From a virus, in the IMG/VR virus record IMGVR_UViG_3300010885_081169, positions 1 through 64,000 of that record: a stretch of 64,000 nucleotides of DNA; one strand, given 5' to 3'. Made by a program: the position numbers and the translations under genes. Under the pieces are notes generated by a model. It searched no databases and was not told the DNA's origin. It worked only from the letters and a program-made list of their open reading frames with translations. Of the stretch, positions 3,221 through 19,201 are shown one piece after another. Within the stretch, counting starts at the first letter, position 1; each line of letters opens with the position of its first letter.

Positions 3221-5128
3221 ATGTTCGACAGTCCCTTTGGTAAGAAGCTCAGCATCCCTCAGGAGTGCGAGATCATCTTCGTAGCTGACCTGTTCCAGGA
3301 GGAGTATCTCGGAGGTGCGGAGCTCACCTCTGGTGCCCTGATCAGCTCAGCTCCCTTGCCTATCCTGAAGCTCCACTCCAGGGACGTTTCGCACGAGCTC
3401 CTCGAAGAGGGCAAGGACAAGTACTGGATCTTCGGAAACTTTGCACAGATGGATCTCAATCTGATCCCGTCGATCGCTGCAAATATCAAGTACTCCATCC
3501 TTGAGTACGACTACAAGTTCTGCAGGTACCGCTCTCCCGAGAAGCATGAGGCTGCCGAAGGCAAGCACTGCAATTGCAACAACGAGGATCACGGCAAGCT
3601 CGTATCAGCGTTCATGTACGGTGCTCAGTCCCTCTGGTTCATGTCTGAGCGCCAGCAGGAGAGGTATACCAAGCGTTTCCCGTTCCTGCTCGAGAGAGAG
3701 AACTGGGTCCTGTCTTCGGTCTTTGACGACCAGTTCTTTGCGTCAGTGAAGTTCCTCAGGGAGCGCGCTGCTGGAAAGCCTCGAACAAAGTGGCTCGTCC
3801 TCGGTTCTGATTCCTGGATCAAGGGCTTTGCCGACGCCGTGAAGTGGTGCGAGGACAACGGGAAGGAGTACGAGGTCATCAGCGGCTGGAGGTATGAGCA
3901 GGTCCTCGAGCGCATGTCCACCGCAGAGGGTTTCGTCTACCTCCCGCTCGGTGGCGACACCTGCCCCCGAATGGTCATCGAGGCGAAGCTGCTCGGCTGC
4001 GAGGTCGTAACCAACGACAACGTCGAGCATGCCAAGGAGGAGTGGTTTGCGACTGATGACGCAGGTCTCACTGAATCCTATCTCTACGCTGCGAGGGGCA
4101 AGTTCTGGAACTCCATCCTCAGCTCAAGGACCCCAGTCGTGGGAATCTCTGGGTACACGACGACACTCGACTGCATAAGGCACAGTTATCCTTGGCGGGA
4201 AAGCATAACTTCCCTGCTGGGATTCTGCGGGCAAGTCGTGGTGGTCGACGGCGGTAGCAAGGATGGTACTTGGGAGGAGCTTCAGGAGTGGGCCAAGCTG
4301 GAGCCAAAGCTCGACGTCCACCAGGTCGCCAGAGACTGGAACCACCCCCGGTTTGCGGTGTTCGATGGCGCCCAGAAGGCCGAGTCCCGCCGGCGATGTA
4401 AGCTCGAATTCCTGTGGCAACAGGACGCCGATGAGGTCGTCCATGAGGACGACTACTCCAAGGTCCAGCAGCTTTGTAAGAGGTTCCCAGCTGGGGTTGA
4501 CCTCCTCGCGCTGCCGGTGATCGAGTACTGGGGAGGTCCAAGCAAGGTCCGCGCTGACATAAATCCCTGGAAGTGGCGCTTGAGCCGCAACAGACCAAAC
4601 ATCACCCACGGGATTCCTGGAGTCTTTAGGGTCACCGATGAGGATGGCGGCACTTACTCTAAGCCGGGATCTGATGGTTGTGACTATGTCGACGCTGAGA
4701 CTGGTGATTTCATCAAGTTTGCCAACTTCTACGATGACAATGTCCACGGTGCCAGGATTGCGGGACTCAATGGAAACTCTGCTGCCCTTGAAGCTTACCA
4801 GAACTGGTTCTACGCCGCGACCGATGGCCTCCCTTCAGTGCACCACTACTCGTGGTTTGATATGGAACGCAAGATCAGGACCTACCGTGACTACTGGTCA
4901 AAGCACTGGCAGAGCATGTACAATATCCCGCAGGTCGATACATCTGAAAACAACATGTTCTTCGACAAGCCTTGGTCAGAGGTCACTGACGCGGACATCC
5001 GCGAGCTAGCCAATAAGCTCTCTAGTGAGATGGGTGGATGGATCTTCCACCAGAAAATCGACTGGAGCAGAAAGACTCCTCACCTGAACCCGCCTAAGCC
5101 ACAGCCCGGAGTCATGAATGATAAGTGA
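3221..5128 (+). CDS. Two-domain glycosyltransferase (GT4-like + GT2)
   Basis: This 635-residue protein looks like a fusion. Residues about 1-290 resemble a GT-B glycosyltransferase: a Rossmann-like segment TKWLVLGSDSWIKGF and a late GGDTCPRMVIEAKLLGCEVV motif in the place of the GT4 E-x7-E element. Residues from about 305 form a GT2/GT-A domain: VVGISGYTTTLDCI, VVVVDGGSKDGTWEEL and the metal-binding QQDADEVV. Between them the N-terminal half has a Cys/His-rich stretch (CRYRSPEKHEAAEGKHCNC) that might bind metal. It is the first gene of the sugar operon, preceded by a strong GAGGAG, and overlaps the next gene by 11 bp. Donor and acceptor cannot be read from sequence. One chain with two transferase folds could add two sugars in succession. 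Confidence 0.78.
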   Translation: MFDSPFGKKLSIPQECEIIFVADLFQEEYLGGAELTSGALISSAPLPILKLHSRDVSHELLEEGKDKYWIFGNFAQMDLNLIPSIAANIKYSILEYDYKFCRYRSPEKHEAAEGKHCNCNNEDHGKLVSAFMYGAQSLWFMSERQQERYTKRFPFLLERENWVLSSVFDDQFFASVKFLRERAAGKPRTKWLVLGSDSWIKGFADAVKWCEDNGKEYEVISGWRYEQVLERMSTAEGFVYLPLGGDTCPRMVIEAKLLGCEVVTNDNVEHAKEEWFATDDAGLTESYLYAARGKFWNSILSSRTPVVGISGYTTTLDCIRHSYPWRESITSLLGFCGQVVVVDGGSKDGTWEELQEWAKLEPKLDVHQVARDWNHPRFAVFDGAQKAESRRRCKLEFLWQQDADEVVHEDDYSKVQQLCKRFPAGVDLLALPVIEYWGGPSKVRADINPWKWRLSRNRPNITHGIPGVFRVTDEDGGTYSKPGSDGCDYVDAETGDFIKFANFYDDNVHGARIAGLNGNSAALEAYQNWFYAATDGLPSVHHYSWFDMERKIRTYRDYWSKHWQSMYNIPQVDTSENNMFFDKPWSEVTDADIRELANKLSSEMGGWIFHQKIDWSRKTPHLNPPKPQPGVMNDK

Positions 5129-5858
5129 GAAAGAGCCGAAGGTTCTGGTCGTGATTGCGTGCTACAATCACGGAAGGTATCTCAAGCAGAGCGTCCAGAG
5201 CATCCAAAATCAGACGTGGAAGAACCTCGAAATTGCCGTCGTTAATGACGGCTCGAGCCCTGACCAAGGGATCGATGAGATTGTTAGCGAGCTCGCAAAG
5301 GAAGATCTGCGCGTCAAGTACCACAAGTTCGAAGATAATCACGGAAAGTGGCATGCCCTCAACTACGTGATGTCAAATAGCGAATGTGACTTCTTCACGT
5401 CCCACGACTCCGATGACATCTCGCTTCCTGATAGGATCTTCCGTCAGCTCAGATGCCTCTTTGAGACAAATACGCTGCACAATCTCTGTGGTTTCTACCA
5501 CTGTTATGACGAAGATGACGTGGATCAAGCGATGTCACTGCCTGCTCTCGGAGAAGAACTAACTGTGATGGAGCAGGAAACAGTCTCGAAGCTTGTCCTG
5601 GGTGGATTCCACACGCCAGGAGTGAACCACTACTCGACTGGAAGGTTTGAGACTGCCGGAGTCTCTGCAATGTTCCACCGAGCGCTGTTCGGATATGGGC
5701 TCAGGTTCAATCCTCCCGGTGTCGGCCTCCGTGTGCTGAACAGTGAGGACAGCGACTTTAACTTCAGAGCGACAGCCCTCTTGGGAAAGACTTCGATTCT
5801 TGCTGAGCGCCAGTACTGTTACCGCAGGAACACATCTACGAACAATCAGGACAAGTGA
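5118..5858 (+). CDS. GT2 family glycosyltransferase
   Basis: The 246-residue protein has a GT-A fold of the GT2 type. The N-terminus reads VLVVIACYNHGRYLKQSVQSI, followed by IAVVNDGSS (nucleotide-binding Asp 44) and the metal-binding DSDD at residues 97-100. A later NSEDSDF near residue 208 fits the catalytic-base region. The family transfers a sugar from a nucleotide-sugar to an acceptor with inversion. It is short for the family, so it carries only the catalytic domain. It starts inside the preceding gene and its TGA overlaps the next ATG, consistent with translational coupling. The sugar transferred is unknown. Confidence 0.85.
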   Translation: MISEKEPKVLVVIACYNHGRYLKQSVQSIQNQTWKNLEIAVVNDGSSPDQGIDEIVSELAKEDLRVKYHKFEDNHGKWHALNYVMSNSECDFFTSHDSDDISLPDRIFRQLRCLFETNTLHNLCGFYHCYDEDDVDQAMSLPALGEELTVMEQETVSKLVLGGFHTPGVNHYSTGRFETAGVSAMFHRALFGYGLRFNPPGVGLRVLNSEDSDFNFRATALLGKTSILAERQYCYRRNTSTNNQDK

Positions 5859-6604
5859 TGCGATTCAATATTGTCGTACCAACCTACAACACAGAGCACT
5901 GGATCTCCAGGTGCTTGCACTCCATCCAGTCGCAGAGCCACACTGATTTTCGGTGCATTGTCTATAATGACGCCAGCACCGATAACACTGGGGCAGCAAT
6001 TGACAAGCATTTTGCGGAATTTCCAGACGCCAGGTTCACAGTAGTCCACAACACCGAGAACAGGAAGGCGCTGCACAACATTGTCGAAGGCTTCAAGCTC
6101 CTCGAGACTGACAAAGATCCTGAGTCAGTTCTTATGGTCATCGATGGAGACGATTTCCTGTTCTCTGAGTTCTCTCTTGCGATTGTCAGCAATGTGTACC
6201 GAGACTTTCGCGTCCTCTTGACCTACGGAAATCATATTCATTGGCCAACTGGCCAGACCCGAACAAACTGCGAGCCATTTCCCGATGATGTTGTCAGGAG
6301 TAACTCCTACAGAGATTATAAGTTCATCTCCAGCCACCTACGCACGTTCAAGAGCAGGATCTGGAACGCGATAAGGGACGAGGATCTGAGGGACGTTGAC
6401 GGAACGTACTTCAAGACTGGCTGGGACGTTTCTTTCATGATTCCAATGCTTGAGATGGCTGGAGAGCGCCACGCTTTCATTCCGAACGCTCTCTATGTCT
6501 ATAATCGTTGGAATCCTTTGAGCGACGATGTTATCAATTCTGCCGATCAGGGTAGAGTTGATAGGCTGATCAGGACCCGACCAAAATATAGCAGGATCAG
6601 CTGA
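5858..6604 (+). CDS. GT2 family glycosyltransferase
   Basis: This is a 248-residue GT2-type enzyme with opening strand FNIVVPTYNTEHWISRCLHSI, CIVYNDASTDNT and the metal-binding DGDD at residues 96-99. C-terminal residues YKFISSHLRTFKSRIWN and TGWDVSFMIPMLEM resemble the acceptor half of GT2 enzymes acting on surface polysaccharides. I chose the ATG that forms a TGATG overlap with the upstream stop; a GTG one codon earlier is the alternative. It is probably a second, distinct sugar transferase in the same pathway as the preceding gene; the two are not close copies. Substrate unknown. Confidence 0.85.
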   Translation: MRFNIVVPTYNTEHWISRCLHSIQSQSHTDFRCIVYNDASTDNTGAAIDKHFAEFPDARFTVVHNTENRKALHNIVEGFKLLETDKDPESVLMVIDGDDFLFSEFSLAIVSNVYRDFRVLLTYGNHIHWPTGQTRTNCEPFPDDVVRSNSYRDYKFISSHLRTFKSRIWNAIRDEDLRDVDGTYFKTGWDVSFMIPMLEMAGERHAFIPNALYVYNRWNPLSDDVINSADQGRVDRLIRTRPKYSRIS

Positions 6605-6610
6605 GGTTCC

Positions 6611-7201
6611 ATGAAAGAGTCTGATTACTACAGCCAAAAGTTCTGGTTTGAGCAAGTCCATCTCCACGGTGATGTTGACAACTACAGCAGGGACTACTAC
6701 GCTTGCAAGATCTATGAAGACGTGGTCTTCAAGATTTCTGACATTCCAAAGCATGGATTCATCCTCCTGATGGGGACCAACAACTGCGTTGGGTTTGACA
6801 TGCTGTGTGAGTTCTTTGGCAGGGATCGCTGTATTGGATTTGACATCGCAAACCCGAAGAACCACGACAGAGTGAGGATCAAGAACTCCCTTGACCTATC
6901 TCCTGATGACAATTTTGAGATCGCCTTTGTCCACAACGACATAGGCTCGTTCCCGACCACGCCAGTCGCCAAGTGGGCTGGTCAGGACTGGGCAGCAAAG
7001 AACGTGGTCCAAGGCGGTTACCTCTTGGGCAGGAATAACTTCAATGCCGCAAAGTACCCACTTGAGCAGCACCTCGAGAGGCTGGGGTTCACCAACACAC
7101 ATTTCCTCGGTCTAGATGGACTCTTGGACTTGGGCAGGCTCGACAAGGAAGTCATCGAGGGCCACATGCTCTCAAAGAGAAATAGGCCAGCGCTCAGATG
7201 A
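6611..7201 (+). CDS. Putative class I SAM-dependent methyltransferase-like protein
   Basis: The 196-residue product has a Rossmann-like core: HGFILLMGTNNCVGFDMLCEFF fits the SAM-binding loop, RCIGFDIANPKNHD the acidic strand 2, and FEIAFVHNDIGSF strand 4. The glycine loop is not the canonical ExGxGxG, so the match is weak and the protein might only share the fold. It lies between a GT2 and a GT10 gene and overlaps the latter by ATGA, so it probably modifies the same glycan or a sugar precursor. Function uncertain. Confidence 0.45.
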   Translation: MKESDYYSQKFWFEQVHLHGDVDNYSRDYYACKIYEDVVFKISDIPKHGFILLMGTNNCVGFDMLCEFFGRDRCIGFDIANPKNHDRVRIKNSLDLSPDDNFEIAFVHNDIGSFPTTPVAKWAGQDWAAKNVVQGGYLLGRNNFNAAKYPLEQHLERLGFTNTHFLGLDGLLDLGRLDKEVIEGHMLSKRNRPALR

Positions 7202-8040
7202 TTGTGAACTTGATAGACGAGAACATCTCGCATGCCGACTCCTATGACGAGACGCTTGAGCGTGGGAGAATCCCTGAAAAAATCTCCTACGTCAAGATGC
7301 TCTCAGAGTACGACGGCATCACAATCTTCACAGGCAGGATGACGCAATTTGTTGGGAGGGTAAACACAAAGAAGAACGTTGCTTGGATCATGGAGCCCAG
7401 GGCTTTTGAGCCTCAGTCTTACCAGATCCTCGAGCAGATTGGATCTAGCTTTGACCTAATCTTGACCCACGACCAGAAGCTTCTCGACATGTATCCCGAA
7501 AAAGCGGCTTACATGCCTGCAGATGGGATCTTTGTTGATACGCCAGCGATTCACGACAAGCATGCCAAGTCAAGAGACTGCTCTCACATATTCTCTGACA
7601 AGAGAATCCTTGAAGGTCACAGGTTGAGGCATGACATTGCGCACCACATTCGGAAGGCTGGATATGATGTCGATTTCTACGGTCGAGGCTGCAATCCAAT
7701 CGACAGAAAAGCCGAAGCCCTATTGCCGTATCGATTCTCGATATCGATCGAGAACAACAGGGCGCCAAACTACCACACTGAAAAGATACTAGACTGCTTT
7801 GCTTGCCGCACGGTACCAGTGTACTGGGGAGATCCAACCGTATTTGAGCATTTTGACCAGAAGGGCATCATTGTCTTTGAGAGCGCAATGGACCTCATGC
7901 AGATCATTCCAAAGCTAAATGAAGACCTCTACCTGTCAATGCTAGATCCCATAGAGGCAAATCACGCAAAGAGCCTCGATTACTACAGCATTGACAACAT
8001 CGTGGCTGATATCCTGAGCAGGAGATTCGGAGTTGAGTGA
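7198..8040 (+). CDS. GT10 family (alpha-1,3/1,4) fucosyltransferase
   Basis: The C-terminal half has the GT10 donor-binding signature at residues 178-212: YRFSISIENNRAPNYHTEK followed by ILDCFACRTVPVYWGDP. It contains the conserved E185-N186, Y192, T194-E195-K196 and the VPVYWG turn. GT10 enzymes transfer L-fucose from GDP-L-fucose, usually in alpha-1,3 or alpha-1,4 linkage to GlcNAc or Glc. The 280-residue length is shorter than many family members, with a reduced N-terminal acceptor domain. The match is strengthened by genes for GDP-L-fucose synthesis 5-7 kb downstream in the same operon. It starts by ATGA overlap with the preceding gene. Linkage and acceptor cannot be predicted. Confidence 0.85.
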   Translation: MIVNLIDENISHADSYDETLERGRIPEKISYVKMLSEYDGITIFTGRMTQFVGRVNTKKNVAWIMEPRAFEPQSYQILEQIGSSFDLILTHDQKLLDMYPEKAAYMPADGIFVDTPAIHDKHAKSRDCSHIFSDKRILEGHRLRHDIAHHIRKAGYDVDFYGRGCNPIDRKAEALLPYRFSISIENNRAPNYHTEKILDCFACRTVPVYWGDPTVFEHFDQKGIIVFESAMDLMQIIPKLNEDLYLSMLDPIEANHAKSLDYYSIDNIVADILSRRFGVE

Positions 8041-8812
8041 GTATGTGAGCTTCTCCATGCTGGGAAGCTACGGTCGGCTCTGCAATCAAATGTTCCAGGT
8101 CGCGGCTGTGTCTTGCCTTGCAAAAGATAGAAATCTCCAGCTTATCCTGCCTGATGAGAGCAGAGCAGAGATTAGAAATCACTTCAAGATTCCAGCCGTT
8201 GATCTGAACGAGCAGACTGCGCAGTTCATAAAATATAGGTGGAATGAACCCGGGTTCTCCCATTCTCGAGAGATGGCTTTGATACCTGGGAACTGCGATG
8301 TTGTCGGCTATCTACAGTCTTGGAAGTACATCACCGATCCAGAGCATGTACGAAAGATCTTCCAGTTTGAAGAGACGCTGAGAAACGCCACTAAAGACAA
8401 GCTACCTGTTGGTAAGCAGAGAGTCGCTATCCACGTAAGGAGGGGAGACTATGTCAAGCTCAGAGACACTCATCCACCGCTAAGCGTTGATTACTATCGA
8501 GCGGCGATTGATATACTCAGGAAGAGGCTTGGTAGCGTTGACTTCATTGCTTTCTCGGACGACAGAGAGTGGTGCCGGCAAAATATTGCTGAAGCAACGG
8601 TGTATGAAGGCCTCTCTAACATTGAAGACCTGTGTGCCATGTCAAGCTGTGAACACCACATCATCGCAAATAGCTCTTTCAGCTGGTGGGGATCTTGGCT
8701 GGCCAGCTCAAGTGAGCAAGTCGTGATTGCTCCGAAAAATTGGTTCGGACCCTCTGGACCAAAAGACACTCAGGATCTTCTTCCAGAACACTACGAGGTT
8801 ATCGATGTATGA
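8033..8812 (+). CDS. GT11 family (alpha-1,2) fucosyltransferase
   Basis: This carries diagnostic GT11 motifs (numbered from the TTG start): an N-terminal SYGRLCNQMFQVAA that matches the family's GxLGNQMFQ region, HVRRGDY at 134-140 (GDP-fucose binding), SDDREWC at 175-181 and NSSFSWWGSWL at 213-223. GT11 enzymes transfer fucose from GDP-L-fucose in alpha-1,2 linkage, typically to galactose. Length is normal for a bacterial member. The frame opens at TTG 8033, overlapping the GT10 gene; GTG 8045 is an equally plausible start. Together with the neighbouring GT10 gene it indicates a glycan carrying fucose in more than one linkage. Confidence 0.9.
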   Translation: MSEYVSFSMLGSYGRLCNQMFQVAAVSCLAKDRNLQLILPDESRAEIRNHFKIPAVDLNEQTAQFIKYRWNEPGFSHSREMALIPGNCDVVGYLQSWKYITDPEHVRKIFQFEETLRNATKDKLPVGKQRVAIHVRRGDYVKLRDTHPPLSVDYYRAAIDILRKRLGSVDFIAFSDDREWCRQNIAEATVYEGLSNIEDLCAMSSCEHHIIANSSFSWWGSWLASSSEQVVIAPKNWFGPSGPKDTQDLLPEHYEVIDV

Positions 8813-9509
8813 CATTACCGCTATGTTAGATAGGGATGGAGTCAAGAACAATCCGGAATTTCCACGGCTAGTCTCTTATCCGAGGACTGGTTCTCACTGG
8901 CTCAGAATTCTGCTCGAGTCATATCTCGGAGAGCCGTCTTATGTCCAGAGCTTCTTTGACCCTAATCCAAAGTCGTTCTGGGGATTCCACATTCATGATC
9001 GGCGCGTGGGAAATTACGAACCCTCTGAGGGTCTCACCGCTGGCCTCAAGAAGGTGATCTACCTCCACAGAGACCCAGTAGACACGATTTATTCCCAGTT
9101 ACGCTACGATCACACTATTGCCAGCAACTGGAACGGCGAGAGGAATCAGTGGCTTGACGATCAGGTTCAGTCTCTAGTTGAAGAATACAGAGCGCACCTC
9201 TCCAGGTGGACTAGGGATAATTCTGACATTGAGTCGATGATCAGCCTCTCTTATGAAGAGCTCAAGTCAAATCCAGTCGAATCCATGGCCCACGTTCTTA
9301 GATTCCTCGGTAGGGAAGTAGATACCACCAAAATTCTTGCCGTATATGAGAAGTGCAACAAGAGCCTCACTAAGTCTGTGACTCCTCATGATCCAGCCGC
9401 GTTAAGTGCTGAAGCCGTCCAAGCCCCCGAAGTCTATGAGAACACCAGAGAGAGGTTCAGGGTCGCTTACGATTCAATCATCAGAGAGCAATTTGCGGGA
9501 CTAAGATAG
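8805..9509 (+). CDS. Sulfotransferase (PAPS-dependent family)
   Basis: This 234-residue protein has both cofactor motifs of the sulfotransferase family: the 5'-phosphosulfate loop SYPRTGSHWL at residues 24-33, and the 3'-phosphate site VIYLHRDPVDTIYSQ with its Arg-Asp-Pro and following Ser. Sulfotransferases move sulfate from PAPS to hydroxyl or amino groups, here most likely on a glycan given the context. I chose ATG 8805, which overlaps the GT11 gene by 8 bp; the frame extends further upstream without a better start. PAPS would come from host sulfate assimilation. Acceptor unknown. Confidence 0.82.
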   Translation: MYDITAMLDRDGVKNNPEFPRLVSYPRTGSHWLRILLESYLGEPSYVQSFFDPNPKSFWGFHIHDRRVGNYEPSEGLTAGLKKVIYLHRDPVDTIYSQLRYDHTIASNWNGERNQWLDDQVQSLVEEYRAHLSRWTRDNSDIESMISLSYEELKSNPVESMAHVLRFLGREVDTTKILAVYEKCNKSLTKSVTPHDPAALSAEAVQAPEVYENTRERFRVAYDSIIREQFAGLR

Positions 9510-9517
9510 GAGACTCC

Positions 9518-10189
9518 ATGCCGGTAATTCTTGACTACGATGAGACCAAATTTCCGATCAGAAGCCACGTGCAAGATCTGTTCGGCGTGACTGCTTTAGA
9601 GCTTCTGCATGTCCAGAGAAGCGACCTCATGTTCGATAACCTTGACAGTAGCAATGAGAGCAAGACTGAGTATCACTCTGCTTTCTATAAGAGGCTGAAC
9701 CATGATGGTCCATTCTCTTGGACTGAAATCATCGATGCTTATCACGGCATCTTGCGTGAAGTCGTTTCTCCCCTCGTCAACAAGGAATTTATCTATCAGA
9801 CATTTCCTTCGTTCAGAGTCCATGTTCCAAACTACAAGGCCACTTACAAGTGGCACTATGATAGCGATATAGACCACAGGCACCCTGATGGAGAAATCAA
9901 TTTCCAGATCCCTCTCACAGTGATGTATGGGACCAGCGCTACTTGGTGCGAGAGCGTACCAGGACTCGGAGACTATAAGCCCATGAACTGTCATCCTGGC
10001 CAACTGGTCTGCTTCAATGGAAACAAGCTCACGCACGGAAACAAGATCAATGAGACTGGTCTCACTCGCGTGAGCTTGGACTTTAGAATCCTGCCAAGAG
10101 ACAAATACTTTCCAGAGAGAAACCTCACCTCAGTCACCAAGGGAACAGATTTCAAGGTTGGAGGCTACTACTCTGAGTTTTCTCGATGA
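9518..10189 (+). CDS. StrG-like 2-oxoglutarate/Fe(II) oxygenase
   Basis: The 223-residue protein has the facial-triad layout of 2OG-Fe(II) dioxygenases: H113-x-D115 in KWHYDSD, distal H173 in LTHGNKINETG and R184 in TRVSLDFR for 2-oxoglutarate. The string NFQIPLTVMYGTSATWCES followed by GDYKP and the HGNxxNxTGxTRVSLDFR tail resembles the StrG family of streptomycin clusters and related proteins in phage and bacterial polysaccharide loci. It would hydroxylate or oxidise a sugar or amino acid side chain. AGGAG at 9508-9512 precedes the start; the stop overlaps the next ATG. Substrate unknown. Confidence 0.65.
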   Translation: MPVILDYDETKFPIRSHVQDLFGVTALELLHVQRSDLMFDNLDSSNESKTEYHSAFYKRLNHDGPFSWTEIIDAYHGILREVVSPLVNKEFIYQTFPSFRVHVPNYKATYKWHYDSDIDHRHPDGEINFQIPLTVMYGTSATWCESVPGLGDYKPMNCHPGQLVCFNGNKLTHGNKINETGLTRVSLDFRILPRDKYFPERNLTSVTKGTDFKVGGYYSEFSR

Positions 10190-11082
10190 AAAAGTTCTGC
10201 ATACTCGAGCAGGGAAGGTACGTCAATGACCCTCTGTCAGTCCAAAAGCGCGAGCTATTCACGCGTGACTTTTGCGACTTCTATAGACTGAACTGGAGCA
10301 CCCCTGAAGATCCTGCGTCGGACTTCTACCAGTCTAAGCTTCTATTTTCTGAGGGTCGGACATTCTTGTACGATGTGGTCCAGAAGAACTACGAGTACTA
10401 CATCTTCATAGATGATGACACGGAATTCATCACTGAAGATCCTGCCAGCGAGATTCTTCGTTGCCTCGAGAAGTGGAAGCCACTTTGCGCTACTTTCCAA
10501 GAAGTCAGTAGCGGAAAAATTGTTTATGAAAATCCAGAAGGCAAAGAGGCGTTCTGCATCACCGACTACGACCAACAGACTAATGTCTATCACCGGTCGT
10601 TCATGGAGAATGTCTTTCCATTTGTTTGCCACGCAAGCGGCGGAGTCAGCTTATTCTGCCAGTATTTGGGCAACAAGATTGCGCCGAACAAGCAGGTATG
10701 CTTTGACAGCATAAGAGTAAGGAACACCAGACACGAGCACGATACTTTTGCGCACCCTGAGAGAGTCGCTAGAAGCGAATCAGTTGTCGATCTAGTCTGG
10801 AAAGTCTTCAATCAGATGACTCACCACAAGGATTTCCCGCACAAGTTTAGAGACGCTCAAAATTGTGCTTTGACGTACGGCTTGAGTCCATCTGCTGAGA
10901 GCTTCACGCTGACCAAAGACCACGTTGCAGGCGCCATAGATGATCAGTCAGAAGTTTGGAAGTCAAGATCTCCCGTGAGATCTAAGCAGCTTGCTAAACT
11001 TCTGATCTCTCGAGATAAACTAAAGGAACATGAGCTGCAGTATTTGAACCTGTTGCTTTGGTGGGAGGAGAATGTTCGCTAG
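10186..11082 (+). CDS. Putative GT-A type glycosyltransferase
   Basis: The 298-residue protein has a YEYYIFIDDDTEF segment (Asp 76-78) that looks like a GT-A metal-binding DxD after a hydrophobic strand. An N-terminal KFCILEQGRY and a His/Asp-rich middle (NTRHEHDTFAHPERV) follow. I do not recognise a CAZy family. The C-terminal 60 residues are helical and charged. It overlaps its neighbours at both ends (ATGA upstream, 11 bp downstream) and so belongs to the sugar operon. It might instead be a nucleotidyltransferase-like or hydroxylase-associated protein. Confidence 0.45.
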   Translation: MKKFCILEQGRYVNDPLSVQKRELFTRDFCDFYRLNWSTPEDPASDFYQSKLLFSEGRTFLYDVVQKNYEYYIFIDDDTEFITEDPASEILRCLEKWKPLCATFQEVSSGKIVYENPEGKEAFCITDYDQQTNVYHRSFMENVFPFVCHASGGVSLFCQYLGNKIAPNKQVCFDSIRVRNTRHEHDTFAHPERVARSESVVDLVWKVFNQMTHHKDFPHKFRDAQNCALTYGLSPSAESFTLTKDHVAGAIDDQSEVWKSRSPVRSKQLAKLLISRDKLKEHELQYLNLLLWWEENVR

Positions 11083-11737
11083 TATTGAGGAAATTAAGCC
11101 AAAGCTAGAGGGTCTTGGGTTTGTCATCAATGACCCCTGGGACGTTGTTGATGCGTTTGAGAAGATGGTCGCTAACTACGCAGGTAGCAAGTACGCTGTA
11201 AGCGTCGATAATTGCACCGACGCGTTGTTTCTCTGTCTCAGGTACAACAACGCTAGCGGCAAGATAAAAATTCCATCCCGCACGTATGTCTCAGTTCCAC
11301 AGACTATCATACACGCTGGCTGTACTCCAGATTTTGTCGACTTCGATTGGTCTGGGTGCTACAAGCTAGATCCATACAACATTGTCGATGGAGCTACGAG
11401 ATTCACCAAGGGGATGTATGTGCAGGATACATTCCACTGTCTTTCCTTCCACATCAAGAAGACAGTGCCGATTGGAAAGGGCGGCATGATCCTGACAAAT
11501 GACAAGGCAGCATATGACTGGTTCAAGCTTGCTCGGTACGAGGGGCGCGATATTACTGTGCCCTACGATCAGGACAAGATCCAGATGATGGGATGGAACA
11601 TGTACATGCCACCCGAGCAGGCCGCTAGAGGAATTCAACTGTTCCTTGAGGTCTCTGACGACAACAAAGACTGTGGCGGTTCTTGGAAGTACCACGACGT
11701 CTCAGGACTAGAAATCTTTCAAAGCACCGGTAAGTGA
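11072..11737 (+). CDS. DegT/DnrJ/EryC1-type aminotransferase, short form
   Basis: This is the N-terminal, PLP-binding domain of the DegT/DnrJ/EryC1/StrS sugar aminotransferase family: YAGSKYAVSVDNCTDALFLCL (phosphate-binding region), IKIPSRTYVSVPQTIIHAGCTPDFVD, NIVDGATR (cofactor Asp 106) and SFHIKKTVPIGKGGMI, with K130 as the likely Schiff-base lysine. Family members are about 370-400 residues; this one ends at 221 and lacks the C-terminal small domain. The downstream frame does not resume it, so it is a genuine short gene or an old truncation. An intact member could aminate a 4-keto sugar such as the Gmd product. Whether this short form is catalytic is unclear. GGAGGAG lies just before the start. 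Confidence 0.72.
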   Translation: MFASIEEIKPKLEGLGFVINDPWDVVDAFEKMVANYAGSKYAVSVDNCTDALFLCLRYNNASGKIKIPSRTYVSVPQTIIHAGCTPDFVDFDWSGCYKLDPYNIVDGATRFTKGMYVQDTFHCLSFHIKKTVPIGKGGMILTNDKAAYDWFKLARYEGRDITVPYDQDKIQMMGWNMYMPPEQAARGIQLFLEVSDDNKDCGGSWKYHDVSGLEIFQSTGK

Positions 11738-12418
11738 ATGTCTTCTGTTTCAATTGCGGCGTTTGACGCGCAAGAGTTCCTGAGAACAAACTCTTGCATC
11801 GAGTTTCGTAACGAGAGGATCTCTGGATTTCATAGAGACGCGATTCTCTGTGATTTTATGATCAAGCTCTTGAGGCATTATGACATCTTTGTAGAGACAG
11901 GAACGTACTTAGGCATCACCTGCGACTACGTTTCTTTGAATTCTCCAGGGACAATTTTACATAGCTGCGAGCTCTCAAGGAGCAACTACGAAGCAGCAAC
12001 TTTGCAATGTTCCGTCCGCAAAAATGTCTCGATAACTCACTCGGACTCTTTGAGCTTTCTTGGGCAGATCGATAAGGCCGTGCCCCGCGATGCTATTCCT
12101 GTATTTTGGCTAGACGCTCATTCTGATGAAGATGATGATCCAACCGTCCTAAGAGAAGTTGAGCTAATAACTCAAAAGTACAAGAATTACGTCATACTGA
12201 TTGACGACCTCAAGAATCCTAGAGTCGAAGGCTGCAATGCACAGATTAGGTCTGCTTCCATAATTGACACTCTAAATTCTGCCGGCGCAGTTTGGCCAAA
12301 GTACAGCGCTACCCATCGATTTCAAGGCGGAAGATTAGATTTTGACCCCAACCCCAGCTGTTCTTCGTGGTGCATGATCACCAGTGAGAACATTACTAGC
12401 CCTCTCTTTGAAGCCTAG
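11738..12418 (+). CDS. Class I methyltransferase-like protein
   Basis: The 226-residue protein opens its Rossmann fold with YDIFVETGTYLGITCDYV, fitting motif I (E-x-G-x-x-x-G). ILHSCELSRSNYEAA fits motif II with an acidic residue for the SAM ribose, and IPVFWLDAHSDEDDDP and YVILIDDLKNP fit later strands. This arrangement is known from methyltransferase-fold proteins in polysaccharide loci. The WLDAHSD motif is also seen in relatives that are not proven methyltransferases. It starts immediately after the previous stop (TGAATG). Probably O-methylation of the glycan; substrate unknown. Confidence 0.55.
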   Translation: MSSVSIAAFDAQEFLRTNSCIEFRNERISGFHRDAILCDFMIKLLRHYDIFVETGTYLGITCDYVSLNSPGTILHSCELSRSNYEAATLQCSVRKNVSITHSDSLSFLGQIDKAVPRDAIPVFWLDAHSDEDDDPTVLREVELITQKYKNYVILIDDLKNPRVEGCNAQIRSASIIDTLNSAGAVWPKYSATHRFQGGRLDFDPNPSCSSWCMITSENITSPLFEA

Positions 12419-12433
12419 ACAAAGGAATTAGCC

Positions 12434-13081
12434 GTGAAGAATCTGGTATACATCGGTCTATCTTATTGCTCTACATTCATAGAGCTAGTGAACTCAGGAA
12501 GATTCGATAGGCACTATGGGATTGACCCTCTTGAGAAGTATGCGGATCTTCACAAGCGACTTAATGAGATTCCAAATGTCGAGGTCATGACTGCCGCAGC
12601 ATGGACTCATGATGGCGAGATTGAGTTTACGCTTTCAGGTGGATCAGACCTTGGCACAAGCTCTATATCAAAGGGAAATAGTTTAGATTTTCCCTATCGT
12701 TCACATGAAAATCTTCATAATGGCAAAGTTGTGAAGGTCAGAAGCGTGAACTATCCTGCTTATTTGCAGTCTAAGGGAATCGAACAGATAGACACTCTGA
12801 TAACAGACGCCCAGGGTGCAGATCTCACAATATTGAAGACCTTTGAGGCTTATCTCAGGTCGCAGAAGATTGGATCGATAACCCTAGAGCTAGAAGACGC
12901 AAGGAAGGGGAAAATCTACCCTGATCTTCCAGACAACACAGTACAATCAGCAGCTGAATATCTCAAACAGTTTGGTTACATTTTAGTTGGTTCTAGCCAC
13001 GGCATAGTGACTAGAGGAGAGTTTCATGATTTCTCTGATGACAGATGGTGGGCAGATTACCTCTTTGAGATTGCGCCATGA
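12434..13081 (+). CDS. FkbM-family methyltransferase
   Basis: This 215-residue protein fits the FkbM family: YIGLSYCSTFIELV near the start, HYGIDPLEKYADLHKRLNE as the SAM-ribose strand, VMTAAAWTHDGEIEF as the linking strand, and IDTLITDAQGADLTILKTFE near 116-135, which corresponds to the family's D-x-E-G-x-E-x-x-x-L region with variation (DAQGAD). The classic motif I glycine loop is reduced. It starts at GTG with AAGGA at 12422-12426 and a 7-bp spacer. FkbM enzymes methylate hydroxyls on sugars or polyketides; here a sugar is likely. Confidence 0.65.
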   Translation: MKNLVYIGLSYCSTFIELVNSGRFDRHYGIDPLEKYADLHKRLNEIPNVEVMTAAAWTHDGEIEFTLSGGSDLGTSSISKGNSLDFPYRSHENLHNGKVVKVRSVNYPAYLQSKGIEQIDTLITDAQGADLTILKTFEAYLRSQKIGSITLELEDARKGKIYPDLPDNTVQSAAEYLKQFGYILVGSSHGIVTRGEFHDFSDDRWWADYLFEIAP

Positions 13082-13308
13082 AAGATGACATAGCTACCAG
13101 CAAGTTCTTGATCAGATTTAACACAAAGCATGGCAATAGCAATCTTGTGTGGCGTATCTTCCAAGACGGAGTCGAGAGATGCGCTTCTGGAGTCAACATT
13201 AAAGTCCCATCCTGGAGTGAATCTTCGCTTGAGGGTGACGTGAAAAAGTGGAACTTAGCTTGTCTTGGAGTCGCTGTCTGGACAGGCGACGAGGTCCTTA
13301 TCAAATGA
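13078..13308 (+). CDS. Small conserved-looking protein of unknown function in glycan operon
   Basis: This 76-residue protein is fixed between two genes by ATGA overlaps on both sides, which argues that it is real. It has beta-strand-like segments (FLIRFNTKHGNSNLVWRIF, GVNIKVPSW, WNLACLGVAVWTGDEVLI), five tryptophans and two Cys, and no signal or membrane segment. It may be a small beta-sandwich or accessory factor for a neighbouring enzyme. I know of no family assignment. Confidence 0.65.
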   Translation: MKDDIATSKFLIRFNTKHGNSNLVWRIFQDGVERCASGVNIKVPSWSESSLEGDVKKWNLACLGVAVWTGDEVLIK

Positions 13309-14237
13309 AAAATTTAGTCACAGGAGCAACTGGACTTCTTGGCAGCGAGATTCTTGCTCTGTCTCCTGGTTCCGTTGGACTCAGCTCGAGAGAATGTGAT
13401 CTCACGGATTCGAATCATGCTATCCTCACTCTGGAAGATGGACGAGTAGACACGGTCATTCACTGTGCCGCAAGGGTCGGAGGTGTGAAGGCTAACACTG
13501 ACTATGTCGCTGACTTCTTTGATGACAATGTCAAGATGAACATGAATGTGCTGAATGCCTGCAGAGTGAATAAGCTGAAGCTTGTCTCTGTGCTCTCGAC
13601 CTGCATCTACCCAGACGCGCCTTATGTGAAGTACCCGCTCACAGAGGATCAGCTTCACATGGGTCCTCCGCATCTATCGAACTTTGGATATGCGTACGCA
13701 AAGAGGATGCTTGAGGTCCAGAGCAGGGCTTATCGCCAGCAGTTTGGGTGCAACTTCATCTCGGTCATTCCAAACAATCTCTACGGTATCAATGACAACT
13801 ACGATCTCAACAGTGGTCATGTCATTCCAGCTCTCATCCGGAAGTTCCATGAGGCAATGCAGGCAGGCAGGAATGAAGTCGTTGTCTGGGGATCTGGACG
13901 TCCAATCCGTGAGTTCACTTTTGCCAGGGACGCAGCCAAGATCATTCTGTGGCTTGCGGAAAACTATGATGGCGAGGAGCCTATCAACATCGGTAACCCT
14001 GATTGGGTCTCTATCGAAAATCTTTCTCTGATGATCGGAGAGGAAATCGGATTTGAGCGACACATCAAGTTTGACTCTTCAAAGCCTGACGGACAGTACG
14101 AGAAGCCGTCTTCAAATGATAAGCTGAGGTCTCTTGGCTGGTCAGCAGAGTATACACCACTTCGAGAAGGCCTTCAAGAGACTATTAGAAAATTCCAAGA
14201 TCGATATCCAAACGTAAGAGGATTCCATGTACACTAA
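13305..14237 (+). CDS. fcl: GDP-L-fucose synthase (GDP-4-keto-6-deoxymannose epimerase/reductase)
   Basis: The 310-residue protein is an extended SDR enzyme with NADP loop TGATGLLGSE at residues 6-15. It carries the active-site set known for GDP-fucose synthase: S98-T99-C100-IYP (C100 matches the epimerase Cys), Y129-x3-K133 (catalytic Tyr/Lys) and H172 in the NSGHVIPALIRKFHEA string, which is highly typical of Fcl/WcaG. It converts GDP-4-keto-6-deoxy-D-mannose plus NADPH to GDP-L-fucose. Length matches the family (about 310-320). I chose the ATG overlapping the preceding TGA; the open frame extends upstream. Gmd lies one gene downstream and two fucosyltransferases upstream, so the assignment is strong. 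Confidence 0.93.
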   Translation: MKNLVTGATGLLGSEILALSPGSVGLSSRECDLTDSNHAILTLEDGRVDTVIHCAARVGGVKANTDYVADFFDDNVKMNMNVLNACRVNKLKLVSVLSTCIYPDAPYVKYPLTEDQLHMGPPHLSNFGYAYAKRMLEVQSRAYRQQFGCNFISVIPNNLYGINDNYDLNSGHVIPALIRKFHEAMQAGRNEVVVWGSGRPIREFTFARDAAKIILWLAENYDGEEPINIGNPDWVSIENLSLMIGEEIGFERHIKFDSSKPDGQYEKPSSNDKLRSLGWSAEYTPLREGLQETIRKFQDRYPNVRGFHVH

Positions 14238-14940
14238 GCTTGAGGTTCCTCATGATTGCCAGATTGAATCTTTGGAGCAGATATACAATAAGTGGCTCTT
14301 GCCAAACGCTGGTGAGGACCCAGTTTTTGTAGAGGTCGGCGCTTATGATGGAATAAGCTGGAGCAACACTTACGCCTTATCTAAGCTTGGCTGGAAAGGG
14401 CTATATGTTGAGCCTGTCTCTGAGTACGCTCGTGCCTGCTCTTTGAATCACTCTCACAATCCTGAGATAAAAGTAGTTTGTTGCGCTGTTGGAGAAGTCG
14501 AATCAAAAGCAAGAATTGCTGTCGCAGCCAGCATCACGACACTTGACAAGGACCATCTTGAAGCTTACAAAGAGATCTCGTGGGCTAAAGAAGCTTTGGA
14601 ACAGAATTTCTCTGGAGTAAGAGAGGTTCAAGTCTATAGGTTGGAAACTATCTTAGACGCCGTTGGCTTGAAGAATGCTGATCTACTCGTGATCGACGTT
14701 GAAGGCTACGAAGAAAGCGTATTGAGATCTTTCGATCTCAAGCAGCTAGACCCCAAGATGCTGATTTGCGAGATTCAAGATGGGCACAAAGACTTTGCCA
14801 GATACAGTGAAATTGTAGAAAGAGAGCAGAGAGTAAGAAACTTCATCTTGAATTCTGGTTATAGTGAAGTCTATAGAGATCAAGTAAACACAGTGTTTGT
14901 CAAGCAAGAAATCTTTAACCGCACAAAGGACTCAACGTGA
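14227..14940 (+). CDS. FkbM-family methyltransferase
   Basis: The 237-residue protein is a clear FkbM member: [20 protein letters not shown] at 32-51 (SAM loop), [17 protein letters not shown] (ribose-binding acidic strand), [17 protein letters not shown], the family's TLDKDH segment, and [19 protein letters not shown] near 154-172 with the D-x-E-G-x-E motif intact. The enzymes methylate hydroxyl groups, often on glycans. It sits between Fcl and Gmd and overlaps both, so the pair is co-translated with a methyltransferase. It might methylate fucose or another sugar of the same chain; 2-O-methylfucose occurs in nature but is only a guess here. Confidence 0.85.
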
Positions 14941-15908
14941 AGACTGCACTAGTCACTGGAGTCACTGGGCAAGATGGGAGCTATCTCGCCGAGCTCCTTC
15001 TAGAGAAAGACTACAGAGTTATTGGAATGAAGAGGAGAACTTCTCTTCTTGCGACTGATCGAATTGATCACCTGCTTAAGCACCCGAACTTTCAGCTTGT
15101 CTATGGCTCCATGAATGATGCAGGATCTTTCTACAGGCTCTTTTCGAATCAAAAGTTCGATGAAGTCTACAATCTTGCTGCGCAGTCTCACGTCCGAGTT
15201 TCTTTTGACGTTCCAGAAGAGACTGTGGATGCCGTCGCTGTTGGTCCTTTGAGACTGCTAGAATGTATCAGGACCATGCAGCCGAGCTGCAGATTTTACC
15301 AGGCATCTTCTTCTGAGATGTACGGAGATAATCCCGAGCACCCTCAGAGTGAGGAGACTCGTCTGATGCCAGCCTCACCATATGCTTGCGCCAAGGTCTT
15401 CGCGCATGGTCTCACTCGCAACTACCGTGAGGGTTACGGAATCCACGCATCTTCTGGTATTCTGTTCAATCATGAGAGTCCGCGGCGTGGCGAGACTTTT
15501 GTGACTCGCAAGATCACCTTGGCGGCGGCGCGGATCAAGCTTGGCCTACAGGACAAGATCTCTCTTGGGAACCTCGACGCTCTACGAGACTGGGGCTATG
15601 CCAAGGACTACGTTGAGGCGATGTGGCTTATGCTCCAACAGGACAAGCCTGATGACTACGTTGTCGCAACTGGTGAGACCCACACGGTCAGAGAATTCCT
15701 GAACGAAGTGTTTGATATTGCGGGTCTCAATGTGGACGAGCACCTTGTGATTGACGACAGGTTGAAGAGGCCACACGAGGTTCCGTGGCTTGAGGGCGAC
15801 TACTCAAAGGCGAAGGAAAAGCTTGGATGGACTCCTAAGACTACGTTCAAGAGTCTGGCAAAGCTGATGTACGAAGCGGATCTTGAACTCACAAAAAAGT
15901 CTCTGTAA
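14937..15908 (+). CDS. gmd: GDP-mannose 4,6-dehydratase
   Basis: The 323-residue extended SDR enzyme has NADP loop [15 protein letters not shown] at 7-21, the R-rich segment MKRRTS for the cofactor phosphate, S125-S126-E127 (catalytic Ser/Thr and Glu), Y149-x3-K153 in SPYACAK, and the Gmd hallmark [16 protein letters not shown] at 177-192. It converts GDP-D-mannose to GDP-4-keto-6-deoxy-D-mannose, the substrate of the adjacent Fcl. It starts at GTG (GTGA overlap) with AAAGGA about 10 bp upstream. No guanylyltransferase or phosphomannomutase is in the window, so GDP-mannose must come from the host or from genes elsewhere in the phage. Confidence 0.95.
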
Positions 15909-15944
15909 ATGTGAAATTGAGATTGCGTTGGTATATGATGTTGC

Positions 15945-16742: not shown

Positions 16743-16756
16743 TCTCCTTTAAACCA

Positions 16757-16791
16757 TCTAGAGCCATTGATAGTTTTGCAAAGGTTCTAGA
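16757..16791 (+). promoter_or_regulatory. Hairpin overlapping the ribosome binding site of the first GT4 gene
   Basis: TCTAGAGCC at 16757-16765 can pair with GGTTCTAGA at 16783-16791: nine pairs with one G-U, across a 17-base loop. The 3' arm overlaps the Shine-Dalgarno AGAGGA (16789-16794) of the gene starting at 16797. The folded form could hide the ribosome binding site. There is no T run, so it is not a standard terminator. Confidence 0.4.
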
Positions 16792-16796
16792 GGAAT

Positions 16797-18050
16797 ATGA
16801 GCAAGAAGAAAATACTACTTTTGTCTGATCACGCACTGAGCACTTCTGGCGTGGGAACTCAGAGCCGCCACCTGGTGAACGGCCTGATTGCAAAGGGCGA
16901 GTGGACTGTTAGACAGTTCGGCGCTGCGGTCAAGCACGATAACTACGACGCGATACAGGTCAACCCAGACTTCATCATAAAGCCAATAGACGGATTTGGG
17001 GATAGAGATTTGATCAGGAAGACTTTGGCTGCCGAAAAGCCAGATGTCATCTTCCTGTTCACGGACCCCAGGTTCTTCTATTGGCTTTTTGAGATGGAAG
17101 ATGAAGTACACCAGGTCTGTCCGATCGTTTGGTGGCATGTATGGGACAATCACCCGTATCCAGAGTTCAACTCGCCGTTCTATGAGGCGACTGATCTGAT
17201 CAATTGCCACTCTCACATGACTTATGAGCTCATCAGGGAAAAGTTCCCTGAGAAGACGAACTTCATTCCCCACGCTCTTCCTGATTCCGTCTACTATCAG
17301 ATGCCAGAAGATCAGGTCAAGATCCACAAGAGAAACATTCTTGGACCTGCCAGAGAAGATCACTTTGTTACTTTCTGGATGAACAGGAATGCTAGGCGCA
17401 AGCGCCCTTCTGACGTGCTTTGGGCCTGGAAAAAGATGCTTGATATTCTCAAGTCTCGTGGAGACGCAAATCCGAAAGCGACTCTCGTGATGCACACGGA
17501 TCCAAAAGACATGGAAGGCCCGAATCTCTACTCGGTCGCCGAGCAGTTGGAGCTTAGAGACACCGTAGTCTTCTCTCCAGATCGCGTCGGGTTTGAGCAG
17601 ATCAACATCCTCCACAATGTTTCGGACTGTTGTCTCAACATATCTTACGCAGAGGGATTTGGTCTAGCAACGTTAGAGGCCATGCAGTGCGGCAGGCCAA
17701 TCATTGCTGCAAAGACTGGAGGCCTGACAAGGCAAGTTGTAGACCACAGAGATGGATCTGAGAATGGAATCGCTCTAGAGATCCGGCAGAAGACGCTTGT
17801 AGGATCTCAGCACGTTCCCTACATCTATGAAGACTTTTGCGATATCGATGAGACCGCGCAAGCCCTTGTGAAGATGTACGACATGGGATTTGACAAGAGG
17901 CGTGAGCTCGGCACAAAGGCCAAGAGCTATGTCAAGAGCGAATTCTCTTACCAGAAGACAGTCGATCTTTGGCATGAGACCCTAAAGAAGACTGTAGAAG
18001 ACTGGAAGACTACTAAGAAGAGCCGCTGGAATCTCAAGGAGGTCAAGTGA
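16797..18050 (+). CDS. GT4 family glycosyltransferase (GT-B)
   Basis: The 417-residue protein has a two-domain GT-B layout. The N-terminal half starts KKILLLSDHALSTSGVGTQSRHLVNGL, the usual GT4 acceptor-side glycine loop. The C-terminal half has FWMNRNARRKRPSDVLWAW, LVMHTDP, and the nucleotide-sugar site SYAEGFGLATLEAMQCGRPI (E-x7-E) near 278-298. The family is retaining and uses NDP-sugars. It is placed after the nuclease gene with its own ribosome binding site, and shares GTGA overlap with a second GT4. It probably works with the sugar operon upstream, though it could glycosylate a different target such as DNA or a structural protein. Confidence 0.85.
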   Translation: MSKKKILLLSDHALSTSGVGTQSRHLVNGLIAKGEWTVRQFGAAVKHDNYDAIQVNPDFIIKPIDGFGDRDLIRKTLAAEKPDVIFLFTDPRFFYWLFEMEDEVHQVCPIVWWHVWDNHPYPEFNSPFYEATDLINCHSHMTYELIREKFPEKTNFIPHALPDSVYYQMPEDQVKIHKRNILGPAREDHFVTFWMNRNARRKRPSDVLWAWKKMLDILKSRGDANPKATLVMHTDPKDMEGPNLYSVAEQLELRDTVVFSPDRVGFEQINILHNVSDCCLNISYAEGFGLATLEAMQCGRPIIAAKTGGLTRQVVDHRDGSENGIALEIRQKTLVGSQHVPYIYEDFCDIDETAQALVKMYDMGFDKRRELGTKAKSYVKSEFSYQKTVDLWHETLKKTVEDWKTTKKSRWNLKEVK

Positions 18051-19201
18051 AAGTACTGTGCCGAGCACCGCTGCTCACCTTATCTGGTTACGGAAATCAC
18101 TCGAGGCAAGTCTTCCGCTGGCTTCTTGACCAAAAGGGAATTGACCTCCGCTGTCAGGTCTTGAACTGGGGAATCACACCCTGGATGATAAACCCCGACA
18201 TGGAAGATGGACTCATCGGCGAGATCATGAAGAGGACTGCGCCGATAAATGAAAAGTTCGACGTCTCTGTTCAGCTCCAGCTTCCAAATGAGTGGGATCC
18301 AAGCCTCGCAAAGGTAAACATTGGACTCTCAGCCTTTGTTGAGACTGATAAGTGCAACCCACAGTGGCTTGAAGCATGCAACAACATGAGCCACGTTGTA
18401 GTTCCCTCTACGTTCGTCAAATCGACAATCGAGAGGACTGGAAGGGTCAACACTCCGATTTCCGTGGTCCACGAGTGCTTTCCAGAAGATATTCTCAAGA
18501 GTCCAGATCCTCTTGATATCGATGTCCAGACTGACTTCAACTTTCTCATGTTCGGACAGATCACTGGGAACAACCCTGAGAACGACCGAAAGAACACGTT
18601 CTACACCATCAAGTGGCTTTGCGAGCTGTTTAGAAATGATCCCAAGGTTGGCATCATCATCAAGACCAACCATGGCAGCAACTGCACTCTTGATAGAAAG
18701 CACACTGAGAACATGTTACGCCAGCTTCTTAAGGAAGTTCGACAGGGTCCATTCCCTAGATTCCACCTTCTTCACGGCGAGATGACTACTTCTGAAGTTG
18801 CATCTCTGTACAAGAATGAGAAGATCAAGGCCCTCATTACAGCGACAAGAGGCGAGGGATTTGGTCTTCCCATCTTGGAAGCGGCTGCAAGCGATGTTCC
18901 TGTGATTGCCACAAACTGGTCTGGACACCTTGACTTCATGAACCTTGGGAAGTTTGTGAAGCTTGAGAACCAGCTGACTGATGTGCACCAGAGCAAAATT
19001 GATGGAACGATATTTGTTCCTGGAATGAAGTGGGCATCAGTATCTGAACAAGAGTTCAAGAAGAAGGTCACTAAGTTCAGAGAATCAAGCGCGGTGCCGA
19101 AGGAATGGGCCATTGATCTCGGTGACAAGGTCCGGAAAAATTTCTCTCACGCCGCAATTTCTGAGAGCTACGACAGGGAGATAGGACGGTACTTCAGATG
19201 A
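18047..19201 (+). CDS. GT4-like glycosyltransferase
   Basis: The 384-residue protein is a second GT-B enzyme. The N-terminus CRAPLLTLSGYGNHSRQVFRWL fits the GT4 opening. FLMFGQITGNNPENDRKNTF is the linker strand and ATRGEGFGLPILEAAASDVPV near 265-285 carries the E-x7-E nucleotide-sugar motif. It overlaps the preceding GT4 (GTGA) and the following small gene (ATG within the stop region), implying a unit. The two GT4 proteins are clearly different in sequence. Acceptor unknown. Confidence 0.82.
   Translation: MKVLCRAPLLTLSGYGNHSRQVFRWLLDQKGIDLRCQVLNWGITPWMINPDMEDGLIGEIMKRTAPINEKFDVSVQLQLPNEWDPSLAKVNIGLSAFVETDKCNPQWLEACNNMSHVVVPSTFVKSTIERTGRVNTPISVVHECFPEDILKSPDPLDIDVQTDFNFLMFGQITGNNPENDRKNTFYTIKWLCELFRNDPKVGIIIKTNHGSNCTLDRKHTENMLRQLLKEVRQGPFPRFHLLHGEMTTSEVASLYKNEKIKALITATRGEGFGLPILEAAASDVPVIATNWSGHLDFMNLGKFVKLENQLTDVHQSKIDGTIFVPGMKWASVSEQEFKKKVTKFRESSAVPKEWAIDLGDKVRKNFSHAAISESYDREIGRYFR

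Follow-up and report, generated by a model that had tools for sequence, protein, structure and literature searches.

A putative glycan-building island with a predicted GDP-L-fucose pathway and GT10- and GT11-type fucosyltransferases in a T4-like phage

The stretch of DNA analysed here (the window) comprises the first 64,000 nucleotides of a 70,524-base virus record, IMG/VR IMGVR_UViG_3300010885_081169, and belongs to a T4-like phage. Positions 3221 to 15908 hold a run of 16 genes, all on the plus strand, with intergenic gaps of -11 to +15 bases, and four of them code for a GDP-mannose 4,6-dehydratase (Gmd), a GDP-L-fucose synthase (Fcl) and fucosyltransferase-like proteins of the glycosyltransferase (GT) families GT10 and GT11. 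Synthesis of GDP-L-fucose by phage-encoded enzymes is predicted from Gmd and Fcl, and the prediction is supported by the family models and solved structures described below. In the explanation that we favour, with moderate confidence, this donor pathway, together with the GT2, GT11 and GT10 transferases, a sulfotransferase and FkbM methyltransferases, builds a fucosylated glycan, perhaps on a phage structural protein. A sequence-only reading of the window had placed the four genes in one run of overlapping genes, and the family scans agree with it.

The donor pathway and the two fucosyltransferases

The four genes are the following:
7198..8040, plus strand: GT10 fucosyltransferase-like protein, 280 amino acids (PF00852, 34.9 bits; AlphaFold2 model)
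8033..8812, plus strand: GT11 fucosyltransferase-like protein, 259 amino acids, with an HVRRGDY motif (PF01531, 106 bits; phrog_2644, 193 bits)
13305..14237, plus strand: Fcl, GDP-L-fucose synthase (3,5-epimerase/4-reductase), 310 amino acids (NF047922; PDB 4e5y)
14937..15908, plus strand: Gmd, GDP-mannose 4,6-dehydratase, 323 amino acids (TIGR01472, PF16363; PDB 1n7g)

Gmd passes the curated equivalog cut-off of the NCBIfam model TIGR01472 (442.5 bits against 415), and it also matches PF16363 (429 bits) and the solved GDP-D-mannose-4,6-dehydratase 1n7g (376 bits). For Fcl, the top PDB match is the GDP-L-fucose synthase 4e5y (258 bits); GDP-fucose synthases, variously named, take the first 18 places among its 57 PDB matches, and GDP-mannose 3,5-epimerase comes next at 55 bits. 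The best NCBIfam model for Fcl is likewise GDP-L-fucose synthase, NF047922, with a score of 249 bits that stays below the strict cut-off of 500. The same model is the best one for all ten tested Fcl candidates of the other contigs with all four families, and these are below 500 as well (196-450 bits).

In the window protein and 17 relatives, the Gmd motif S-[ST]-S-E and each of the Fcl motifs S-[TS]-C, Y-x3-K and [SG]-G-H-V are kept in 18 of 18 sequences (the Y-x3-K pattern of Gmd was too loose and was left uncounted). The S-x-C, Y-x3-K and H positions of Fcl are presumably the epimerase/reductase residues. Among the 14 Fcl proteins of the four-family contigs, S-x-C is present in all, and G-H-V, as written, in six. 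The ratios of nonsynonymous to synonymous differences (pN/pS) have medians of 0.10 for Gmd and 0.22 for Fcl (153 pairs each), and are given as pN/pS and not as dN/dS because the synonymous sites are near saturation. The set consisted of the window and L012-L028, with L010 and L011 left out as the same phage and L029 left out as distant (39%) and for its stretch without Gmd. By this comparison, purifying selection is shown for both genes, and the reading frames are intact.

GT10 scores 34.9 bits with PF00852 (cut-off 23.9), and no match was found in NCBIfam or PHROG. Since this sequence match is weak, the structure was modelled. The AlphaFold2 model, made from 50 sequences, has a predicted local distance difference test score (pLDDT) of 92.9, and its top PDB matches are the alpha1,3-fucosyltransferase structures 2nzx, 2nzy and 2nzw with GDP or GDP-fucose (TMq 0.61-0.64, with 0.64 for 2nzx; root-mean-square deviation about 6), which we take to come from Helicobacter pylori. 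Fucosyltransferases of the GT10 family occupy ranks 1-7 and 9, with TarM at rank 8, and Arabidopsis FUT11, human FUT9 and mango FUT13 also match highly, amid many other GT-B enzymes. The Pfam score and the predicted GT-B fold, which is near that of characterised GT10 enzymes, place the protein in the family. GT11 is assigned by PF01531 (106 bits, cut-off 23.9) together with the HxRRGDY motif, and R136 and D139 are invariant in all 44 aligned sequences; no significant match to it was found among the solved structures of the PDB. The catalytic motifs counted in Gmd, Fcl and GT11 are in place, and the sequence-only reading had likewise found the residues that it could check. Going by the family names, fucose would be attached in two separate linkages, alpha-1,3/1,4 by GT10 and alpha-1,2 by GT11.

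The remaining genes of the island and its surroundings

The other 12 genes of the run, and two glycosyltransferase genes flanking it, are:
3221..5128, plus strand: 635-amino-acid protein with a GT2 domain, at the left edge of the run (PF00535, 31.9 bits)
5118..5858, plus strand: GT2 glycosyltransferase (PF00535, 83.3 bits)
5855..6604, plus strand: GT2 glycosyltransferase (PF00535, 71.7 bits)
6611..7201, plus strand: small protein, possibly methyltransferase-like (no Pfam or PHROG match; phmmer relatives in L034, L157 and L151)
8805..9509, plus strand: sulfotransferase, sharing 8 bases with the end of GT11 (PF00685, 61 bits; PDB 7d1x, 34.5 bits)
9518..10189, plus strand: weakly 2-oxoglutarate (2OG)-Fe(II) oxygenase-like protein (TIGR04324, 28 bits, below the cut-off of 150; no Pfam match)
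10186..11082, plus strand: 298-amino-acid protein with a DDD stretch, possibly a glycosyltransferase (no Pfam or PHROG match)
11072..11737, plus strand: compact DegT/DnrJ/EryC1/StrS aminotransferase, 221 amino acids (PF01041, 84.8 bits)
11738..12418, plus strand: protein resembling S-adenosylmethionine methyltransferases, as read from its sequence (no Pfam or PHROG match)
12434..13081, plus strand: FkbM methyltransferase (PF05050, 36.9 bits)
13078..13308, plus strand: small open reading frame (ORF), 76 amino acids (no Pfam match)
14227..14940, plus strand: FkbM methyltransferase (PF05050, 79.5 bits)
16797..18050, plus strand: flanking glycosyltransferase (glycosyltransferase models, best TIGR03999, 46.6 bits, below cut-off)
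18047..19201, plus strand: flanking glycosyltransferase (phrog_2170, 69.8 bits)

The four genes named by the sequence-only reading stand, although its list was incomplete: the sulfotransferase, the two FkbM methyltransferases, the DegT aminotransferase and the three GT2-domain proteins belong to the same run. In the cyanophage-type glycan (lipopolysaccharide, LPS) clusters, a T4-like phage carries genes for glycosyltransferases, nucleotide-sugar enzymes and methyltransferases side by side. The run shows this arrangement and is probably a glycan-building island such as large cyanophages are known to have. A polysaccharide locus of the Wzx/Wzy type was considered and set aside, as the island genes of this incomplete genome include no membrane-like protein. 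No flippase, polymerase or initiating membrane glycosyltransferase was seen in the run (island genes of an incomplete genome), because the maximal 19-residue hydropathy mean for the genes of 3221-19201 is only 1.31; it is 3.24 for the next gene, 19198-19524.

The T4-like markers of the window phage, of which only metagenomic sequence is known, are a gp23 capsid protein (PF07068, 221 bits), a T4-type terminase and a baseplate wedge protein. Two further IMG/VR contigs are the same phage, with at least 99.9% identity over the fetched stretches. A tblastn search with the capsid protein matched 2442 records, the best listed being Rhodothermus RM378, the huge phage LR756508, Flavobacterium immuto and Microcystis Mel-JY01. 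Upstream of the island lie genes with LamG, PA14 and F5/8-C domains (Pfam); downstream follow a PD-(D/E)XK nuclease-like gene, the two flanking glycosyltransferases and, from 22959, a baseplate gene. Large LamG-domain proteins, possible tail adhesins, are encoded at 26353-29787 and 45191-47518, amid structural genes.

The sulfotransferase had no tblastn match at E 1e-4 among 50,697 phage records, and its one relative outside the window phage is L034:11481-12191 (phmmer over the loci searched). Sulfotransferases are described as viral genes elsewhere (excerpt of PMC13079714; PMC10580990), so the rarity concerns close relatives only. The compact DegT protein has eight viral relatives of 202-242 amino acids from stop to stop (L017:3558-4238, L034:12857-13531, and one each in L151, L157, L047, L158, L038 and L037), with 37 positions invariant across the nine sequences. 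It was also matched in Flavobacterium phage immuto and in S-SCSM2R, and ten additional, longer DegT ORFs (280-407 amino acids) were matched within the same loci. L034 shares a cassette with the window, consisting of the protein encoded at 6611, the sulfotransferase, the oxygenase-like protein and the compact DegT, and there it is surrounded by GT10, Fcl, GT11 and Gmd.

Distribution of the four families and fusion of the transferases

In the same 50,697 records, tblastn relatives numbered 89 for Gmd (E 1e-20), 75 for Fcl (E 1e-15), and 102 for GT11 and 22 for GT10 (E 1e-3). Synechococcus and Prochlorococcus phages account for 64, 61, 89 and 14 of these, respectively. The remaining records are uncultured, single-cell marine and human-faecal phages. 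A single record named Cyanophage appears among the GT10 relatives and one among those of GT11, and the Gmd relatives further include archaeal viruses and one Escherichia phage. All four families were found within the fetched stretch of 16 out of 168 contigs or records; three are the window phage, and the other 13 are 12 IMG/VR contigs and the phage S-SRM01. The Fcl profile drifted to other epimerases, and its cut of 310 was set after viewing every fourth row of the motifs; a second check, with NCBIfam, covered ten of the 13 contigs accepted in this way, while S-SRM01, L027 and L188 stand outside it. Eight records were searched whole: two of them, S-SRM01 and the 288-kb L034 contig, combine Gmd over cut-off with GT10 and GT11, and S-SKS1, LR756501 and LR756508 gave no GT11 match.

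The full donor pathway with both transferase families in one run, as described by the sequence-only reading, is therefore borne out by sequence, and the survey of co-occurrence that it had proposed contradicts the rarity it had attached to this combination: S-SRM01, the 12 further viral contigs and cyanophage S-SCSM1 carry comparable sets, so we do not regard the combination as unusual. Its observation was accurate and its biochemistry reasonable, with the rarity overstated. It had also said that presence of the set in most related phages would speak against it, and this is not what was found. Of 30 records picked by close Gmd or Fcl, six have GT10 and eight have GT11 over cut-off (ten at E 0.001), the window phage supplying three of each, and both transferases occur in five, again including these three.

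An Fcl scan gave 20 loci, 19 of them with Gmd, a count that is circular for Fcl, the relatives having been found through Fcl. With anchors independent of Gmd and Fcl (the baseplate wedge and a flanking glycosyltransferase), full-length Gmd was found in three of 15 records besides the window phage, with 436 and 433 bits in two and 381 bits, short of the cut-off of 415, in the third. Nine of the 12 records without full-length Gmd are shorter than 25 kb; the 51-kb record G039, in which ~17 kb upstream is present, gave only Gmd matches of 67 and 40 bits. Because Gmd, GT10 and GT11 vary in presence among the relatives, the island is, on these sequence comparisons, variable cargo, with the Gmd-Fcl pair kept more often than GT10 or GT11; we do not propose that the pair is universal in the clade.

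The arrangement of the transferases was followed in a GT10 scan, taken as the best 80 matches (79 contigs counted, with fetched stretches of mostly 10 kb on each side). GT10 and GT11 are both present in 57 contigs, which form 34 clusters at 80% GT10 identity. In ten of the 34 clusters the two are at most 30 bases apart or fused, in either order, which is a descriptive count. The fusion proteins, checked with Pfam, are GT11-GT10 (L041:2300-3973), GT2-GT11-GT10 (L035:8423-10834), GT10-FkbM (L037 and L038) and GT2-GT11 (L037). As their steps are fused in relatives, GT2, GT11, GT10 and FkbM may act on one shared product, in the manner of an assembly line, although the argument is circumstantial. 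The recurrent adjacency and the fusions hint at two fucosyltransferase families working on one phage glycan. The open-licence PubMed Central (PMC) literature on phages with GT families 10 and 11 yielded nothing related, no search having been aimed at fusions. In L062, another epimerase ORF (8725-9828) adjoins GT10.

The proposed glycan, its alternatives and known systems

In the favoured explanation, Gmd would convert host GDP-mannose to GDP-4-keto-6-deoxymannose, from which Fcl would form GDP-L-fucose with NADPH. In the cytoplasm, a short glycan would be assembled by the GT2 enzymes and fucosylated at two positions by GT11 and GT10, and the sulfotransferase and the FkbM enzymes would modify it, giving a sulfated and methylated product. 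The compact DegT protein may divert part of the Gmd product to an amino sugar. The acceptor, a weaker point of the proposal, would be a phage structural protein, since structural genes surround the run and no membrane-like protein is encoded in it. Cytoplasmic decoration of a virion protein, or of an acceptor made by the host, appears likelier from the gene content than a complete exported polysaccharide. Glycosylation of phage virions has been reported for mycobacteriophages (cited in an excerpt of PMC12619734).

Several points weigh against this explanation. The proposal is read from gene content, and closeness to structural genes is no proof of an acceptor in the virion. Neither promoters nor terminators rose above the level of shuffled sequences, and the window lacks the T4-type late octamer TATAAATA. 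The Fcl score below its strict cut-off and the near-saturated synonymous sites belong here as well. Among the 79 contigs of the GT10 scan (best 80 matches), Gmd and Fcl are both within the fetched stretch in ten, one of them in six and neither in 63, so phage GT10 is found mostly without a nearby donor pathway. In the whole records of S-SCSM2R (L005) and of the L062 contig, GT10 and GT11 are present but no Gmd match reaches the cut-off, so a phage-encoded donor pathway is not a requirement for these transferases.

Of the alternatives, remodelling of the host surface polysaccharide or LPS, for example to exclude other phages, is possible but doubtful; lipid-linked sugars of the host would be modified in the cytoplasm and exported by host flippases. 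It is the published reading for S-SCSM1 and for clusters of the P-SSM2 type, the 'LPS genes' of cyanophages (excerpt of PMC9602691). The missing export genes of the run are compatible with it if the host's own serve, whereas the position of the run among structural genes does not favour it. T4-like phages are usually lytic, so a lasting change of the host surface would be less useful to them.

Equally tentative is a shared use of the 4-keto product of Gmd, by Fcl for GDP-L-fucose and by the compact DegT for GDP-perosamine or a similar GDP-amino sugar, so that the glycan carries both. GDP-perosamine synthase acts on the Gmd product. The model of the compact DegT (pLDDT 92.7) has the Caulobacter GDP-perosamine synthase 3dr7 as its top PDB match, K130, D106 and G137-G138, which we take to be residues of the pyridoxal phosphate site, are invariant in all nine sequences, and the gene lies 1.6 kb upstream of Fcl. 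However, ArnB and other sugar aminotransferases score nearly equally, leaving the substrate unsettled, and the protein has 221 amino acids against about 365 in the solved structures and may be inactive or act otherwise. None of the nine family models tested reaches its curated equivalog cut-off (six NCBIfam matches, all below). The fucose genes of the sequence-only reading stand, and a fucose-only view may be incomplete, because the compact DegT resembles an enzyme whose substrate is the Gmd product.

A broader proposal, which we consider improbable, is that T4-like phages have a swappable locus whose enzymes put a Lewis-like oligosaccharide, fucosylated twice, sulfated and methylated, onto tail or capsid proteins of the phage itself in the cytoplasm, with GT2, GT11, GT10 and FkbM as one assembly line, sometimes one polypeptide, and with virion surface sugars that vary from relative to relative like capsule types. 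Still less probable is that another donor than GDP-fucose, such as a different host GDP-sugar, supplies GT10 and GT11, with Gmd and Fcl serving another transferase: the 63 contigs and the records without Gmd over cut-off described above would fit it, but the GT10 model ranks GDP- and GDP-fucose-bound fucosyltransferases first and, to our knowledge, the characterised members of both families are fucosyltransferases. The GDP-mannose 3,5-epimerase that adjoins Gmd and Fcl in S-SCSM1 is a further point for it (excerpt of PMC9602691).

The predicted pathway has counterparts in known systems. Among the closest is the isolate Synechococcus phage S-SRM01 (NC_070963): a Pfam-checked cluster of about 11 kb, flanked by tail fibre and baseplate genes, carries Gmd, Fcl, GT10, FkbM and GT11 on one strand. 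The four proteins are 31-51% identical to those of the window. Unlike the window, S-SRM01 has an additional NodZ/FUT8-type fucosyltransferase (the NodZ-type gene is named in the excerpt of PMC8557907) and a second GT11, and no relative of the sulfotransferase or of the compact DegT was found by phmmer in the region shown. Synechococcus phage S-SCSM1, also T4-like, combines Gmd and Fcl with three fucosyltransferases, which are named as a protein O-fucosyltransferase, an alpha-1,2 enzyme and NodZ, with no GT10 among those in the excerpt of PMC9602691. In Prochlorococcus phage P-SSM2 the Gmd-Fcl pair precedes genes of glycosyltransferase, 2OG oxygenase, GT11 and methyltransferase type, whereas a GT10 match is absent from the whole record. 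In the Lewis antigen of Helicobacter pylori, GT10 and GT11 families work on one glycan, and the crystal structure of its GT10 enzyme is the best PDB match of the window GT10 model; that glycan, however, is bacterial LPS and no phage product. Chlorovirus PBCV-1 encodes Gmd and an epimerase/reductase, its GDP-L-fucose pathway is reported to be fully functional and its capsid glycan contains L-fucose, although it is an algal virus and the excerpt does not describe a118r and a295l as one operon (PMC4691112). What the window adds is predicted phage-encoded GDP-fucose synthesis for a T4-like lineage in whose 12 records, all partial, psbA had no match. Its parts of most specialist interest are the GT10/GT11 fusions among relatives, the sulfotransferase and the compact aminotransferase. 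The pathway set itself is already known from a cyanobacterial virus, and the window phage is a new example of that kind and not a new kind.

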